In this document: positions 31,955 to 37,808 of the stretch, one piece after another
Position numbering within the stretch: position 1 is the stretch's first letter
Layout of the letters: each line of letters starts with the position of its first letter
Assembly: GCA_017447775.1 (NCBI GenBank)
Contig: JAFSMU010000026.1
Location: forward strand, 1 to 64,000
DNA from: Clostridia bacterium
GTDB lineage: Bacteria > Bacillota > Clostridia > Oscillospirales > CAG-272
Length of the DNA: 64,000 bases
Direction: 5' to 3'
The notes under the pieces: generated by a model
The model's database searches: none
What the model saw: the letters and a program-made list of their open reading frames with translations, nothing else
What the model was told of the DNA's origin: nothing
Program-made: the position numbers and the translations under genes

Positions 31955-31983
31955 ATAATACATTTTTTCTTTGCAAAAGTCAA
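31955..31983 (-). promoter_or_regulatory. Promoter of the FAD dehydrogenase gene
   Basis: Minus strand TTGACT (31978-31983), 17-bp spacer, TATTAT (31955-31960). A nearby TATAAT offset allows a second reading. Confidence 0.5.
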
Positions 31984-32002
31984 CACAATTTTATAAAATC
32001 GG

Positions 32003-32031
32003 TTGCATAGCGCATTTTTTTATGATAAAAT
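32003..32031 (+). promoter_or_regulatory. Promoter of the decarboxylase gene
   Basis: Plus strand TTGCAT (32003-32008), 17-bp spacer, TAAAAT (32026-32031). The -10 box lies inside the first copy of an 18-bp tandem repeat. Confidence 0.5.
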
Positions 32032-32068
32032 CATATCGAGTGATAAAATCATATCGAGGTGATAAAAT
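32023..32068 (+). repeat. 18-bp tandem repeat between -10 box and start codon
   Basis: TGATAAAATCATATCGAG occurs at 32023-32040 and 32041-32058 without gap, and a partial third copy (TGATAAAAT) runs from 32060 into the start codon. The ribosome site GAGGTG is created at the second repeat end. Confidence 0.85.
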
Positions 32069-33452
32069 GACGCTATTCGACTATCTTTCAAAGCACGCCG
32101 GCGACAGGCTTCCGATGCACATGCCCGGACACAAGCGCAAAGCGCGGGCAAAATATCTGAAAAAGCTTGCCGCCGATATCGATATTACGGAGATTCACGG
32201 GGCGGACGATCTACACGATCCGCGCGGGATAATAAAAGAAGCGCAAGAGCGCGCGTCGGCGCTTTGGGGCGCTGAAAATTCGCACATTCTCGTCGGCGGA
32301 AGCACCGCGGGGATACTCGCCGGCATTTATTCAATGCTCCTGCCGGGCGACAAGGTTATAATTGCGCGAAACTGCCACAAATCAGTCTATCACGCAATGG
32401 AGATATGCGGCGCTGTTCCGATATACGTTCTGCCGGAAAGCGACGATAAAACGGGCTTTTTTTTGTCCGTCGACGCAAGTGAGATCGACGCGGCGCTAAG
32501 CGCTAACCCCGACGCAAAACTCGTTGTTATAACGTCGCCGACTTACGAGGGCGTTGTAAGCGACGTTTGCGGTATTGCAAATGTGTGCCACGCGCACAGA
32601 GTGCCGCTTCTTGTCGACGAGGCGCACGGGGCGCATTTTGGGATATGCGACAAATTCCCCGATGACGCCGTGGCGTGCGGCGCCGATATCGTCGTGCGCT
32701 CGCTTCACAAAACGCTTCCCTCGCTGACGCAGACGGCGATGGCGCACGTCACGGGTTTGGCAAGCGATGAAAAATTCGCTCGCGCGCTGAACATATTTGA
32801 AACGTCAAGCCCGTCGTATCTGCTTATGGCGGCGGCGGACGGGTGCGTCGATTTTTGCGAAAATCACCGCGAGCTTTTTGAAAAATGGAGCGACGCCATC
32901 GACGGATTTGCAAGTAAAATCAAGCTGAAAAATCTTTCGCTCTTCTGTGGCGAGGGCGCATACGGTTTTGACAAGAGCAAGATCGTCGTTTCGACGGCGT
33001 GCGCGGGCATTTCGGGCTTTGAGCTTGCGCGCATTCTGCGCGAAGAATACAAGATCGAGGTCGAGATGGCGGGTGTGCGCCACATAGTCGCGATGACGGG
33101 CGTTTTCGACGGAAAATCCGAGCTTTCAAAGCTTTCACGCGCGCTTGAAAAAATCGACAAAACACTGTCGGCATCCGCATCAAAAGCAAGAAAAATAAGC
33201 GCAGTCCCGCAGTACGTCATAACGGCGAAAGAAGCGCTTGCATATCCTTCGTGCGAGGTATTTTCGGGCGAGGCCGAGGGGTGCGTTTGCGCTGAATACG
33301 TATGGGCATATCCTCCCGGCATACCGCTTATCGTACCGGGCGAGATCGTCGACGAGAGCACGCTTGCGCTGATAAACGAACTTATTTCAGTCGGCGCCGA
33401 CGTAAAAGCCGCTGACAGATCGCTTAAAACGCTTATAGTTATACAAAAATAA
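32067..33452 (+). CDS. Orn/Lys/Arg decarboxylase family protein (fold type I)
   Basis: A 461-residue PLP enzyme. The N-terminus contains MPGHKRK, then the family block ITEIHGADDLHDPRGII, the glycine loop GGSTAGILAG, the PLP Asp in LVDEAHGAHFG, and the Schiff-base lysine in VRSLHKTLPSLTQTA. The size matches the short B. subtilis YaaO/SpeA subgroup rather than the 700-residue enterobacterial enzymes. It would make a polyamine precursor (cadaverine, putrescine or agmatine); the substrate is not fixed by the sequence. The start at 32067 follows GAGGTGATAAA; an earlier in-frame ATG lies in the promoter region. Confidence 0.93.
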   Translation: MTLFDYLSKHAGDRLPMHMPGHKRKARAKYLKKLAADIDITEIHGADDLHDPRGIIKEAQERASALWGAENSHILVGGSTAGILAGIYSMLLPGDKVIIARNCHKSVYHAMEICGAVPIYVLPESDDKTGFFLSVDASEIDAALSANPDAKLVVITSPTYEGVVSDVCGIANVCHAHRVPLLVDEAHGAHFGICDKFPDDAVACGADIVVRSLHKTLPSLTQTAMAHVTGLASDEKFARALNIFETSSPSYLLMAAADGCVDFCENHRELFEKWSDAIDGFASKIKLKNLSLFCGEGAYGFDKSKIVVSTACAGISGFELARILREEYKIEVEMAGVRHIVAMTGVFDGKSELSKLSRALEKIDKTLSASASKARKISAVPQYVITAKEALAYPSCEVFSGEAEGCVCAEYVWAYPPGIPLIVPGEIVDESTLALINELISVGADVKAADRSLKTLIVIQK

Positions 33453-33537
33453 AGCACATATTGCTTTTTTTGCTTGCATAATAGCAAAATGTGTGATCGA
33501 TTATTTATAAGTATTGATTATCATGGGAGAAAAACAT

Positions 33538-36126
33538 ATGAAAACGAAACATACTCTTGCGCTGATCATTTGCATAGCAATGCTCGCTTCTCTTTTGCTC
33601 TCCTTAAACGCGTCTGCAAAAAGCGGCGACTTTGAATTCATCGTCGAGGAAACGTCAAACCTTTTCCCCACGGCGATCACCGGTTATGAAGATCTTGACA
33701 AGATCTCAAACAGCGACGACGAGGCGATAATAACTGTAGGTTACAGACTGCTTGCTCCGGGCTACAGTATTGTCGATCTTGCGTTTGAGCTTACATACGA
33801 CGAAGAAATACTCGAATACTATCCCGATTTTAAGTCTGACGCCGCCGGCGCTTCCGAAACCATAATACCCGCGCTGAGTCCGTACGGGACGACGAATTTT
33901 GACGATTTTGCAGATTCGGGTATTTCCGGACGCGGAATGATGACTGTCGAATTCAGCGGATATGCCGAGGCGTTCAACGAAAGCGGTATGCCGATAGTAC
34001 TTGTAAAGGTGCCTTTTCAGATAGCTGATACGGAAGCCGGGCGGACAAACGTCGATCTTAATATCATAACGCTTGCGCTCAGAAAAATTCCCGACGTTCC
34101 GACGGGTAGCGTCAGTGTAGATATGGCAATTTCCGACGATGAGGATATATTTATCGTTGAAAACGGATTTGTTAACGAAGAATATCTCGATCTGCTCGGG
34201 CTTTCGACGGTCGTATCTCCGTCCGGCGTCGATTTGATAGCACTTGAAGCGGTAAATCGTGTTACCGATATCATAAATGCGTTACCCTCACCAGAAAACG
34301 TTTCATCAAAAGACGGCGACGCCATAAAAGCGGCAAGAGCCGAATACGACGCGCTGACAAGCAAGCAGAAATCAATGCTCGACGCATCGGTCTACAAAAA
34401 ACTCACCGACTGCGAGGCGGCGCTTGAAAAAGCGATAGACGACGAAACGACGCTGACTATCTCGTTTTCATCTGATTTCTGCCCCGATCTTCCCACCATC
34501 AAGGCAAAAGTCGGCGAGCAAATAACGGTCAAAATCCCCGCTCCGCGCGATCTTGACATAACGTATATGTTCTGGCTGCTCAGGCACGACGAAAAAGTGC
34601 TTGGTTCCCGCTCTATCAATACATTTGGAAAAGGCGGGTACGGCGATGCTCATGTCGGAGACAATTATACATACGACGGCGGATATGCGTATCAGTACAT
34701 TGAAACTGACGGCACTCCATTACACCTTAATAAAGGCGACGTCATGGTTGAGATGACTTTCAAAGTTCTCGCTCCGGGTCAAACGACAATTACTTTTGAA
34801 GCGACAACCGAAAAAGGAAACACGCACAAGCTCACAATCGACATGGGCGGCTTTGAGGACGACTTCGTCTATTATGTAGAGGACGGCGCAAACGCTTATA
34901 AAGCGATTTTCGATGATAATAACTGTCCGATCGGCATTCTGAAAAAGAAAAACGGCGTATATTACGAGCAGGTCAGCATTTTGACAAGGCCCCTGTCCGA
35001 AGTTGAATCGATAGACGAATATATGTTTACTCCATTAAGCAAGATCCTTGATTTTGAGGTTCACGAGGACACGACGCTTTACGCTGTCTGGACAAAATAT
35101 GTTAACAATGTCAATATCGTCATTGAGCCGCCGATAGCGGGCGAAAGAACGTCGGATATTAAAGTTCAGACTGCACACGGAAATACTTACAGAATCCGCA
35201 CAAATCAGCCGAAGGTGTCATTCAAAGACAGCGAGGGATGCGTATACTTCAACGGAGTATGGTATGCCGGTTACACATTTGACGAAAACGGCTCACTTCA
35301 CTTGACGCTTGACAGTGCCCCGTATGAAGCAGGCAAATACTACTATGCTCGCATTTATATCGACGCTGATATAGGATATATGCTCACCGCTGCTGAAAAA
35401 AATATAAAAATCGTCGGCGTTGACGAATATGATATCCTTAAAATCGGCAGTACCTTCAATCACGTTCCGGAATGCTACGGTGAGATGTACGTCGATATCA
35501 TGGTTCCGTGCGTGACGAAAGACGAGGCGGCGGTACTCAAAACCAAAAATAACGCTGAGCTGCTCCCCGACGTCGACAAGCTCACACTCGACGACAAGGA
35601 CGACGTAAAGGCGGCAAAGGCGGCGCTTGACGCGCTGACCGATGAGCAGAAAAAACTCGTTCCGAAGGATGTGGTCGACAAAATAGAGGCGGCAAACGTT
35701 GCGGTCGACGTTCTTTCTCTGCCAGATACCGACAAGCTCACCAAAGACGACAAAGCGGCGGTAAAAGCTGCAAAAACCGAGTATGACTCGCTGACGGACG
35801 ATCAAAAGAAGCTCGTCCCGAAGGAGATCGCCGATAAAATAATTGCGGATGACGTTGTAGTAGATATTCTCTCACTGCCCGACGTCGACAAGATATCAAA
35901 AGGCGACAAGGCGGCAATTGAGGCGGCGAGAAAGGCATACGACGCGCTGACGGACGATCAAAAGAAGCTCGTTGCGAATGATGTGCTTGATAGACTCATC
36001 ACAGCTGAAAACGCGCTCAAAAAAGCATCGGACGGAGGCACGGTCGTCGTTGTGATAATCATAGTAGTTGTCGTTTTATCAGTCGGCGGCGCGGTCGCTG
36101 TCATCATAAAGAAAAGAAAACGCTGA
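33538..36126 (+). CDS. Large surface-anchored protein with helical repeats and a cohesin-like region
   Basis: An 862-residue protein with signal peptide (residues 1-25) and a C-terminal membrane helix (VVVVIIIVVVVLSVGG) followed by KKRKR, so it is probably membrane-anchored with its bulk outside. Residues about 35-220 are beta-rich with a cohesin-like pattern (FELTYDEEILEYYP). One helical module (KAARAEYDALTSKQKSML) lies near 260-305. A beta-rich middle includes a stretch resembling InlB-type repeats (LYAVWTKY). Three more helical modules of 52 residues precede the anchor. Such modules occur in adhesin-like proteins; ligand unknown. No LPxTG motif is evident. ATG 33538 follows GGGAG; an upstream start adds eight residues. 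Confidence 0.8.
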   Translation: MKTKHTLALIICIAMLASLLLSLNASAKSGDFEFIVEETSNLFPTAITGYEDLDKISNSDDEAIITVGYRLLAPGYSIVDLAFELTYDEEILEYYPDFKSDAAGASETIIPALSPYGTTNFDDFADSGISGRGMMTVEFSGYAEAFNESGMPIVLVKVPFQIADTEAGRTNVDLNIITLALRKIPDVPTGSVSVDMAISDDEDIFIVENGFVNEEYLDLLGLSTVVSPSGVDLIALEAVNRVTDIINALPSPENVSSKDGDAIKAARAEYDALTSKQKSMLDASVYKKLTDCEAALEKAIDDETTLTISFSSDFCPDLPTIKAKVGEQITVKIPAPRDLDITYMFWLLRHDEKVLGSRSINTFGKGGYGDAHVGDNYTYDGGYAYQYIETDGTPLHLNKGDVMVEMTFKVLAPGQTTITFEATTEKGNTHKLTIDMGGFEDDFVYYVEDGANAYKAIFDDNNCPIGILKKKNGVYYEQVSILTRPLSEVESIDEYMFTPLSKILDFEVHEDTTLYAVWTKYVNNVNIVIEPPIAGERTSDIKVQTAHGNTYRIRTNQPKVSFKDSEGCVYFNGVWYAGYTFDENGSLHLTLDSAPYEAGKYYYARIYIDADIGYMLTAAEKNIKIVGVDEYDILKIGSTFNHVPECYGEMYVDIMVPCVTKDEAAVLKTKNNAELLPDVDKLTLDDKDDVKAAKAALDALTDEQKKLVPKDVVDKIEAANVAVDVLSLPDTDKLTKDDKAAVKAAKTEYDSLTDDQKKLVPKEIADKIIADDVVVDILSLPDVDKISKGDKAAIEAARKAYDALTDDQKKLVANDVLDRLITAENALKKASDGGTVVVVIIIVVVVLSVGGAVAVIIKKRKR
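35563..36030 (+). repeat. Three tandem 156-bp repeats in the surface protein gene
   Basis: Repeats begin at 35563, 35719 and 35875. Each encodes a 52-residue helical module starting LPDVDK or LPDTDK and containing DALTDEQKKLVPKDV or a close variant. Confidence 0.9.
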
Positions 36127-36154: not shown

Positions 36155-36183
36155 TTGACACGGATATATTTTTCGTGTATAAT
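36155..36183 (+). promoter_or_regulatory. Consensus promoter of the SCIFF operon
   Basis: TTGACA (36155-36160), 17-bp spacer, TATAAT (36178-36183). Exact consensus, implying strong expression of the precursor peptide. Confidence 0.8.
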
Positions 36184-36219
36184 GATATTTGTAAAATTTT
36201 TCATTAAGGAGATATAACA

Positions 36220-36372
36220 ATGAAAAGAATTCAGACTCTTGAAACCAGAGACCTCGAAAAGAGCGTAAAGAACGGCGGCTGCGGCGAATGCCAGACATCG
36301 TGCCAGTCCGCTTGCAAAACTTCCTGCGGCGTTGCAAATCAGCCATGCGAGAAGAAAACCGAAAAGAAATAA
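36220..36372 (+). CDS. scfA: SCIFF ranthipeptide precursor (six cysteines in forty-five residues)
   Basis: A 50-residue peptide, found by reading the gap before the radical-SAM gene. It has the diagnostic block CGECQTSCQSACKTSCG with cysteines at 21, 24, 28, 32, 36 and 43, behind a polar leader MKRIQTLETRDLEKSVKNGG. The ribosome site AAGGAGATATAACA is strong. SCIFF peptides are near-universal in Clostridia and receive a Cys-to-Thr thioether from the neighbouring maturase. In characterised homologues (Tte1186a, CteA) the link joins Cys32 to Thr37, by my recollection; here residue 37 is Gly (SCGVANQPC). The role of SCIFF is not settled; quorum-like signalling has been proposed. Confidence 0.95.
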   Translation: MKRIQTLETRDLEKSVKNGGCGECQTSCQSACKTSCGVANQPCEKKTEKK

Positions 36373-36389: not shown

Positions 36390-36420
36390 AAAAATTGCCG
36401 CCACACTGGCGGCAATTTTT
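36390..36420 (+). terminator. Attenuating terminator between SCIFF precursor and maturase
   Basis: AAAAATTGCCGCC / GGCGGCAATTTTT, a 13-bp stem with a 5-nt loop. It lies 17 bp after the precursor stop and 11 bp before the maturase start. It would leave the peptide mRNA in excess of the maturase. Confidence 0.85.
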
Positions 36421-36431
36421 ACAGGTGAAAT

Positions 36432-37808
36432 ATGATACATCAATACAAACTGAACGGATACAATATCGTTCTCGACGTTTACAGCGGCTCGGTTCACGTT
36501 GTGGATGAGGTGGCGTACGACATTATTTCGATGTTCGAGCAAAAGAGCGAGGACGAGATCGTTTCCGCAATACTTGAAAAGTACAAAGATTCCCCCGACG
36601 TGACGGAGGCGGAGGTGCGCGAGTGCATAGGCGATATTGCCGAGCTTAAAGCGCAGAAAAAGCTGTTTACCACCGATCCGTACGCTTCCCTTGCGTTTGA
36701 TCTGAAATCAAAATCAAACGTTATAAAGGCCCTGTGCCTTCACGTTGCGCACACGTGCAATCTCAACTGCTCATACTGCTTTGCCTCGCAGGGCAAATAC
36801 AAAGGCGAGCGCGCTTTGATGAGCCTTGACGTTGGCAAGCGCGCGCTTGATTTTCTTATCGAAAATTCCGGCACGCGGACAAATCTCGAGGTCGACTTCT
36901 TCGGCGGCGAGCCGCTGATGAACTGGGACGTCGTTAAGGACATCGTGCGATACGGGCGCGAGCTTGAAAAAACGACGGGCAAGCATTTTCGCTTTACGCT
37001 GACGACAAACGGCGTGCTTGTCGACGACGACGTTATAGAATTTTCCAATCGCGAGATGCACAACGTCGTTATGAGCATAGACGGACGACGTGAAGTTCAC
37101 GACTTTTACCGCAAGGACTACGCGGGCAACGGTAGCTACGACAGGATAATTCCGAAGTTTCAAAAATTCGCAAAATCGCGCGGCGACACGGGTTATTACG
37201 TCCGCGGCACGTACACGCACAGGAACGTTGATTTTACAAACGACCTGTTCCACCTTGCCGACCTCGGATTTACGCAGCTCAGCATGGAGCCTGTCGTCTG
37301 CGCGCCGACTGACCCCGAGGCGCTGACAGAGGAGGACTTCCCCAAGCTTTGCGAGCAGTACGAGATCCTTGCAAAAGAGATGATACGCCGCAAAAAAGAG
37401 GGCAAAGAAATCACGTTTTATCACTATATGATCGACCTCTCGCACGGGCCGTGCATCTACAAACGCATCTCCGGGTGCGGCTCCGGCACAGAGTATATGG
37501 CCGTAACGCCGTGGGGCGATCTGTACCCGTGCCATCAGTTCGTAGGCGATGAAAAATACCTTATGGGCAACATCTGGGACGGCGTTAAAAACGAGGCGGT
37601 GCGCGATGAATTCAAGAAGTGCAACGTCTACTCGCGCCGCGAGTGCGACGACTGCTGGGCAAGGCTTTACTGCTCCGGCGGGTGCGCCGCAAACGCATAT
37701 CACGCAACGGGAAAGATAACCGGTACATACGAATACGGCTGTCGCCTTTTCCGCAAGCGTATGGAGTGCGCCATAATGATGAAAGTTGCGGAAGCGCAGG
37801 ACAAATAA
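36432..37808 (+). CDS. scfB: SCIFF maturase, radical SAM/SPASM thioether synthase
   Basis: A 458-residue enzyme that forms the thioether in the SCIFF precursor. Residues 1-90 resemble the peptide-recognition (RRE-like) domain of this family. The radical-SAM cluster motif is C109-N-L-N-C113-S-Y-C116, followed by the FFGGEPLMNW and LTTNGVL strands. The SPASM region for two auxiliary clusters is visible as GCGSGTEYMAV, YPCHQF, CDDCWARLYCSGGCAANAY and YGCRLF. Placement directly after the precursor settles the family. The ribosome site AGGTG overlaps the end of the attenuator. It ends at a bidirectional terminator. Confidence 0.95.
   Translation: MIHQYKLNGYNIVLDVYSGSVHVVDEVAYDIISMFEQKSEDEIVSAILEKYKDSPDVTEAEVRECIGDIAELKAQKKLFTTDPYASLAFDLKSKSNVIKALCLHVAHTCNLNCSYCFASQGKYKGERALMSLDVGKRALDFLIENSGTRTNLEVDFFGGEPLMNWDVVKDIVRYGRELEKTTGKHFRFTLTTNGVLVDDDVIEFSNREMHNVVMSIDGRREVHDFYRKDYAGNGSYDRIIPKFQKFAKSRGDTGYYVRGTYTHRNVDFTNDLFHLADLGFTQLSMEPVVCAPTDPEALTEEDFPKLCEQYEILAKEMIRRKKEGKEITFYHYMIDLSHGPCIYKRISGCGSGTEYMAVTPWGDLYPCHQFVGDEKYLMGNIWDGVKNEAVRDEFKKCNVYSRRECDDCWARLYCSGGCAANAYHATGKITGTYEYGCRLFRKRMECAIMMKVAEAQDK

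Follow-up and report, generated by a model that had tools for sequence, protein, structure and literature searches.

The 64,000-nucleotide stretch of DNA analysed here (the window) contains a complete locus of a Gly37 subfamily of SCIFF ranthipeptides, in which a precursor with Gly at residue 37 and the leader motif T9-[RK]10-[DN]11-L12 is followed by a maturase that carries T108 and N112 and falls in the corresponding maturase clade; these are the features by which we propose to recognise the subfamily. Gly37 is ordinary and common and marks a second branch of the SCIFF family. As a separate clade of precursor–maturase pairs, the Gly37 type is a recognisable subfamily that is apparently undescribed, and the open-licence papers that we searched held no description of a split between Gly37 and Thr37 types. 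We regard it as probable, though well short of certain, that such a locus, with a maturase clade of its own, yields a thioether between Cys32 and the gamma carbon of Thr34, that residue 37 is a marker of the clade, and that a PLP enzyme is a partner of the system. The features of the locus are listed in Table 1.

Table 1 Features of the SCIFF locus and its upstream neighbours in the window.
Feature	Position	Strand	Basis
Orn/Lys/Arg decarboxylase-like PLP enzyme, YaaO-like	31971..33452	+	PF01276; closest structure 2x3l
870-aa surface-type protein	33514..36126	+	no Pfam or NCBIfam match
Sigma-A type promoter TTGACA-17-TATAAT, predicted	36155..36183	+	12/12 consensus match
Ribosome-binding site AAGGAG	36206..36211	+	sequence; 8 bases 5′ of ATG
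SCIFF precursor, Gly37 type, 50 aa	36220..36372	+	TIGR03973, PF13165; type from logos
Hairpin and T-tract in precursor/maturase gap	36390..36420	+	−21.7 kcal/mol, z −4.6
SCIFF maturase (RRE, radical SAM, SPASM), Gly37 clade	36432..37808	+	TIGR03974, tree, clade-specific residues

The precursor gene translates as MKRIQTLETRDLEKSVKNGGCGECQTSCQSACKTSCGVANQPCEKKTEKK, with the core GGCGECQTSCQSACKTSCGVANQPC, and its product scored above the cut-offs of both SCIFF models (TIGR03973, 85.9 bits against 50; PF13165, 84.7 bits against 27), in agreement with a preliminary description of the window that had identified it as a SCIFF precursor. The translation also bore out the six cysteines (Cys21, 24, 28, 32, 36 and 43) and the Gly37 (codon GGC) reported there; Thr34, a candidate acceptor, is present, and the leader reads R3-x-x-T-x-E-T9-R10-D11-L12. 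The Thr37 that the description took as given is absent from this peptide and is an assumption rather than a defining feature of SCIFF. The predicted promoter, the ribosome-binding site and the hairpin fit a normally expressed precursor–maturase pair, with the hairpin a probable attenuator; a terminator-like match lies in the same gap at 36395–36412. A search of the window's genome for a second SCIFF, including one with Thr37, found none, leaving a single SCIFF, and comparison of the precursor with solved structures gave chance matches only. Sequencing error, which the description had left open, did not hold up, being very unlikely because Gly37 recurs across many independent genomes, among them that of a congener (G072/L005); a pseudogene was likewise rejected, the core being identical to that of relatives and the promoter, ribosome site and maturase being intact at the locus.

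The maturase gene starts 59 bases downstream of the precursor, and its product scored 772.4 bits against TIGR03974 (cut-off 425), with a radical-SAM motif of C109-x3-C113-x2-C116 that includes N112 and is preceded by T108. Its closest solved structure is CteB (5wgg; 558.6 bits, full length). The CteA/CteB system (thermocellin) of Clostridium thermocellum resembles the window locus in its six-Cys precursor, its core spacing and its adjacent RRE-radical SAM-SPASM maturase, and all auxiliary-cluster cysteines are common to CteB and the window maturase (the cluster assignment for CteB-like enzymes, and the three-Cys ligation of CteB auxiliary cluster I, follow PMC12093266). It differs in that CteA has Thr37 and CteB has the Thr37-type residues D, R, F, F and E at positions 108, 112, 330, 332 and 440, where the window maturase has T, N, Y, Y and F. 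Tte1186a/Tte1186 of Caldanaerobacter subterraneus also combines a SCIFF precursor with a maturase and has Cys32, the donor in Tte1186a, in common with the window, but its precursor carries Thr37, the in vitro acceptor according to reviews, in place of Gly37. The freyrasin system PapA/PapB of Paenibacillus polymyxa belongs to the same ranthipeptide maturase family; an assignment to this type was rejected, since the window maturase reached only 286 bits against the PapB model NF047865 (cut-off 340) and the window precursor lacks the repeated Cys-x3-Asp motifs of PapA, having no Asp after residue 11 and hence none in its core.

The preliminary description had proposed comparing residue 37 across relatives, and had held that many Gly homologues together with a link mapped at another residue would make the window peptide an ordinary variant; the first half of this proved correct. 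A survey with the pattern C-x3-C-x-[VILMF]-A-N-Q-x-C, in which A-N-Q is obligatory, matched 271 of 394 genomes at the level of the order and 234 of 391 at the level of the class. The Gly37 version of the pattern was found in 69 of these 391 class genomes, that is, in about 29 percent of the 234 positives, and a stricter pattern matched six times in the window's own family, each time with Gly37. Among 167 precursors read, from 120 loci picked by hand for taxonomic breadth and from loci of earlier searches, residue 37 was Thr in 85 and Gly in 82; this ratio is a product of the hand selection, but the absence of any other residue (no Ser, Ala or Asn) is independent of it, within the A-N-Q requirement of the pattern. 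Two nucleotide positions separate Gly from Thr codons, and at residue 37 each amino acid is encoded by all four of its codons.

Precursor logos (78 Gly37 and 84 Thr37 sequences) distinguished the two types in the leader as well. The Gly37 leader reads about R3-I-K-T-I-E-T9-[RK]10-[DN]11-L12, whereas the Thr37 leader has H3 and N8 and is without the T9-[RK]10 motif; the core from residue 20 to 41 is frozen, with exceptions at 26, 37 and 38. Some Gly37-type precursors are doubled: in L038/L166 (G504) and L160 (G658) two full leader-plus-core units are fused in one reading frame, and at G811:C18:315517-315681 two cores lie 129 bases apart.

A tree of 154 maturases grouped all 78 partners of Gly37 precursors, together with a record that has Asp37, in one clade (SH-aLRT 100) on a branch of 0.38, and a mixture-model tree with fewer rows again returned a Gly37 clade with support 100. 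Residue 37 changed between Gly and Thr once on the maturase tree, against a mean of about 52 changes in shuffles. The near-fixed differences from the Thr37 to the Gly37 type are D108T, R112N, F330Y, F332Y and E440F, the changes at 108 and 112 being adjacent to the first and second cysteines of the SAM-cluster motif; the cluster-holding cysteines are retained in both types. Because fixed differences are expected along one long branch, these possibly have no functional meaning; we nevertheless infer co-adaptation of precursor and maturase rather than mere co-inheritance. Both types occur within 12 of 47 families but within none of 122 genera of the fetched set, a pattern that indicates horizontal spread or replacement, with differential loss as the alternative. 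Nesting of the Gly37 clade in the tree suggests a change from Thr37 to Gly37, and only suggests it because, on rooting with distant radical SAM relatives, the outgroup branches were saturated. The Gly37 maturases also differ in cysteines outside these positions: Cys65, Cys290 and Cys397 (numbering of the window maturase) are present in 92–96 percent of the Gly37 clade and in 3–13 percent of Thr37 maturases, residue 397 lying 8 residues ahead of the SPASM CxxC.

For Tte1186a and CteA, in vitro work placed the thioether between Cys32 and Thr37 (Bruender 2016, Grove 2017), and co-expressing CteA with CteB in the presence of labelled Thr placed a link through Cγ between Cys32 and Thr34 (Hudson 2019); both accounts are taken from two reviews (PMC8326336, PMC8172795), in which the discrepancy is described as still disputed. 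The Cys32–Thr37 link that the preliminary description treated as known thus agrees with the in vitro mapping but, for CteA, gave way to Thr34 on co-expression. Its premise that Gly37 cannot form a non-alpha thioether is sound; of its conclusion that the link must move, for example to Thr34, or be made at the alpha carbon, Thr34 survives as the likeliest acceptor, but the CteA mapping related in those reviews makes neither a shift of the link nor an alpha-carbon link necessary. The window peptide has Thr34, so Gly37 demands no new chemistry.

Residue 34 was Thr in 165 of the 167 precursors from fetched loci and in every one of the 78 Gly37 logo sequences; the two exceptions, both Val, come from one genome (G303) taken twice. 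A scan of codon 34 across 84,980 genomes, one per species, for codons starting with C, G or T returned 8 records only, 7 of them Val34 and all 7 with Thr37. Valine retains a gamma-methyl. The rarity of residues other than Thr and Val at this position, over the codons scanned, fits a Cγ acceptor there, but the invariance of Thr34 is no proof of such a role because its neighbours Lys33, Ser35, Gln29 and Ala31 are equally invariant. A SCIFF maturase was present in the Val34 genomes checked, unlinked in three. The Val34/Thr37 peptides (L169, L170, L173, L171, L172, L174 and L175) come from metagenome-assembled genomes of Clostridia, titled Oscillospiraceae, Ruminococcaceae or uncultured Clostridia, and are natural substrates able to separate the Thr34 and Thr37 models. 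The eighth record (L168; CALWTD010000012.1, 714–863) has Ala34, Asp37 and Glu31, and its neighbours are an intact maturase of the Gly37 clade and a PLP gene; its Cys21 codon is TGA, so the gene may be decayed, with error or recoding also possible. In the literature searched we found no mapped crosslink for any Gly37 member, and it is by analogy with CteA that we infer a Cys32–Thr34 thioether in the Gly37 type.

The two types also differ in their gene neighbourhoods. Clustering of neighbouring open reading frames placed a PLP gene at most 3 kb away in 53 of 65 Gly37 loci but at no locus among the 55 of the Thr37 type (Fisher p about 1e-22, a value that ignores the kinship of the loci), the linkage being missing in 12 of the 65. 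Genes resembling tgt, yajC or TIGR04086 lie near 32 of the 55 Thr37 loci and near no Gly37 locus; TIGR04086, yajC, tgt and secDF are what we take these neighbours to be from reading their sequences, not from model searches. PF01276 proteins as such are general: each of 60 genomes tested had at least one, and Thr37 genomes carry PLP genes of this family unlinked to SCIFF, many with a related, YaaO-like copy among tmk-, yaaQ-, holB- and yaaT-like genes. That the PLP gene was merely carried along with a tmk-holB operon was rejected for the Gly37 loci, whose surrounding genes are unshared; as flanking genes are mostly unshared in the wide Gly37 maps, precursor, maturase and PLP gene form a compact unit.

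In 42 cases the linked PLP gene follows the maturase (downstream order); otherwise it precedes the precursor (upstream order). In the PLP tree the SCIFF-linked copies fell into two separate groups matching these two orders, and a single recruitment was rejected by an AU test against one clade of linked genes (p = 1.65e-8; indicative, the groups having been spotted before the test); the PLP gene was apparently recruited to Gly37 loci twice. Maturase and PLP distances correlate in linked loci (r = 0.58 in the downstream-linked group; 0 of 2000 permutations). Like the YaaO-like decarboxylase of the closest structure, the linked enzymes are of PLP fold type I, with the S-x-H-K motif of the PLP lysine and invariant Asp and His residues retained; they vary at an S-P-x-Y-x-G site, which has Tyr in unlinked copies, Glu in upstream-linked copies and mostly Leu in downstream-linked copies. 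The window gene, which probably starts at the ATG at 32067, has the upstream order, belongs to SCIFF-linked clade A and encodes the sole PF01276 protein of its genome; its linkage is looser because the gene for the 870-aa protein stands between. That protein consists of repeats of about 57 aa (LP-x-x-DK-x-x-x-x-DK-x-A-x-x-A-A...DQKKLV) with a C-terminal membrane segment; its gene is absent from the other wide Gly37 maps, and it probably lies outside the SCIFF system. Six Gly37 loci, namely L242, L243, L244 and L146, L147, L149 (family f27), have no linked PLP gene and may represent the state before its recruitment; two of these have another gene nearby in common (cluster 32, about 250 aa). The open-licence papers searched contained no report of a link between SCIFF or ranthipeptides and a PLP or decarboxylase gene. 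From these genomic patterns, the linked PLP gene and the Gly37 SCIFF are probably partners in function, and the enzyme would have its role in acting on the peptide, in supplying a metabolite or in being co-regulated with it, any of which may apply.

In the mechanism that we propose, the leader (residues about 1–20) would be held by the RRE of the adjacent maturase, Cys32 would be activated near auxiliary cluster I and, by analogy with CteA/CteB, a radical would be formed on Thr34, so that the SAM radical chemistry and auxiliary clusters of the maturase would join Cys32 to the Thr34 gamma carbon. Residue 37 would be a clade marker and not the acceptor. Gly37 peptides, leader motif and maturases would have changed together once, and the pair would later have spread across many families.

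Gly37 could, alternatively, be a neutral hitchhiker that was fixed when one maturase lineage arose, with the PLP gene an accidental neighbour. The single origin of the Gly37 clade suits one founder event, and PLP genes are near-universal (60 of 60 genomes), but chance proximity would have to account for two PLP lineages joining Gly37 loci in opposite orders and for the lack of any such linkage at 55 Thr37 loci, and we consider this account somewhat unlikely. Slightly less credit goes to a split in regiochemistry, under which CteB, Tte1186 and other maturases of the Thr37 type would use Thr37, or Thr37 and Thr34, and Gly37-type maturases would be confined to Thr34. CteA, itself of the Thr37 type, speaks against it, having been mapped to Thr34 by co-expression according to the reviews cited above, and the long branch (0.38) would by itself be expected to give fixed differences; the same reviews nonetheless report Thr37 mapped in vitro in two Thr37-type systems, residue 37 is the sole discrete switch in an otherwise frozen core across the 167 precursors, the changes on either side of the radical-SAM motif accompany this switch, and all seven Val34 peptides have Thr37.

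A fuller version, a three-gene modification system whose PLP enzyme acts on or uses the peptide and whose maturase has a regiochemistry unlike that of CteB, seems to us doubtful, a shade more so than the regiochemistry split. Very improbable, in our judgement, is a sulfur-to-alpha-carbon (sactionine) bond formed at Gly37 by the Gly37-type maturase. Glycyl alpha radicals are stabilised, so such a bond is chemically possible, and the active site of this maturase is unlike that of CteB; yet its family is that of the SCIFF maturases (772 bits), the characterised CteA link is non-alpha, and Thr34 is available in 78 of 78 Gly37 logo precursors. We therefore retain as preferred a Cys32–Thr34 link with residue 37 as clade marker.

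SCIFF peptides are near-ubiquitous in Clostridia, and the Gly/Thr37 split argues for at least two SCIFF lineages that differ in their enzymes and gene partners. All clear SCIFF homologues had appeared functionally equivalent to the authors of a 2017 paper (PMC5300114). The PLP gene is a concrete candidate partner for a SCIFF peptide. Gly37 SCIFFs also bear on the dispute between Thr34 and Thr37: given a large natural group without Thr37, a crosslink conserved across the family needs another residue, most simply Thr34. If regiochemistry does differ between the types, the switch to Gly37 would record a real change of crosslink.
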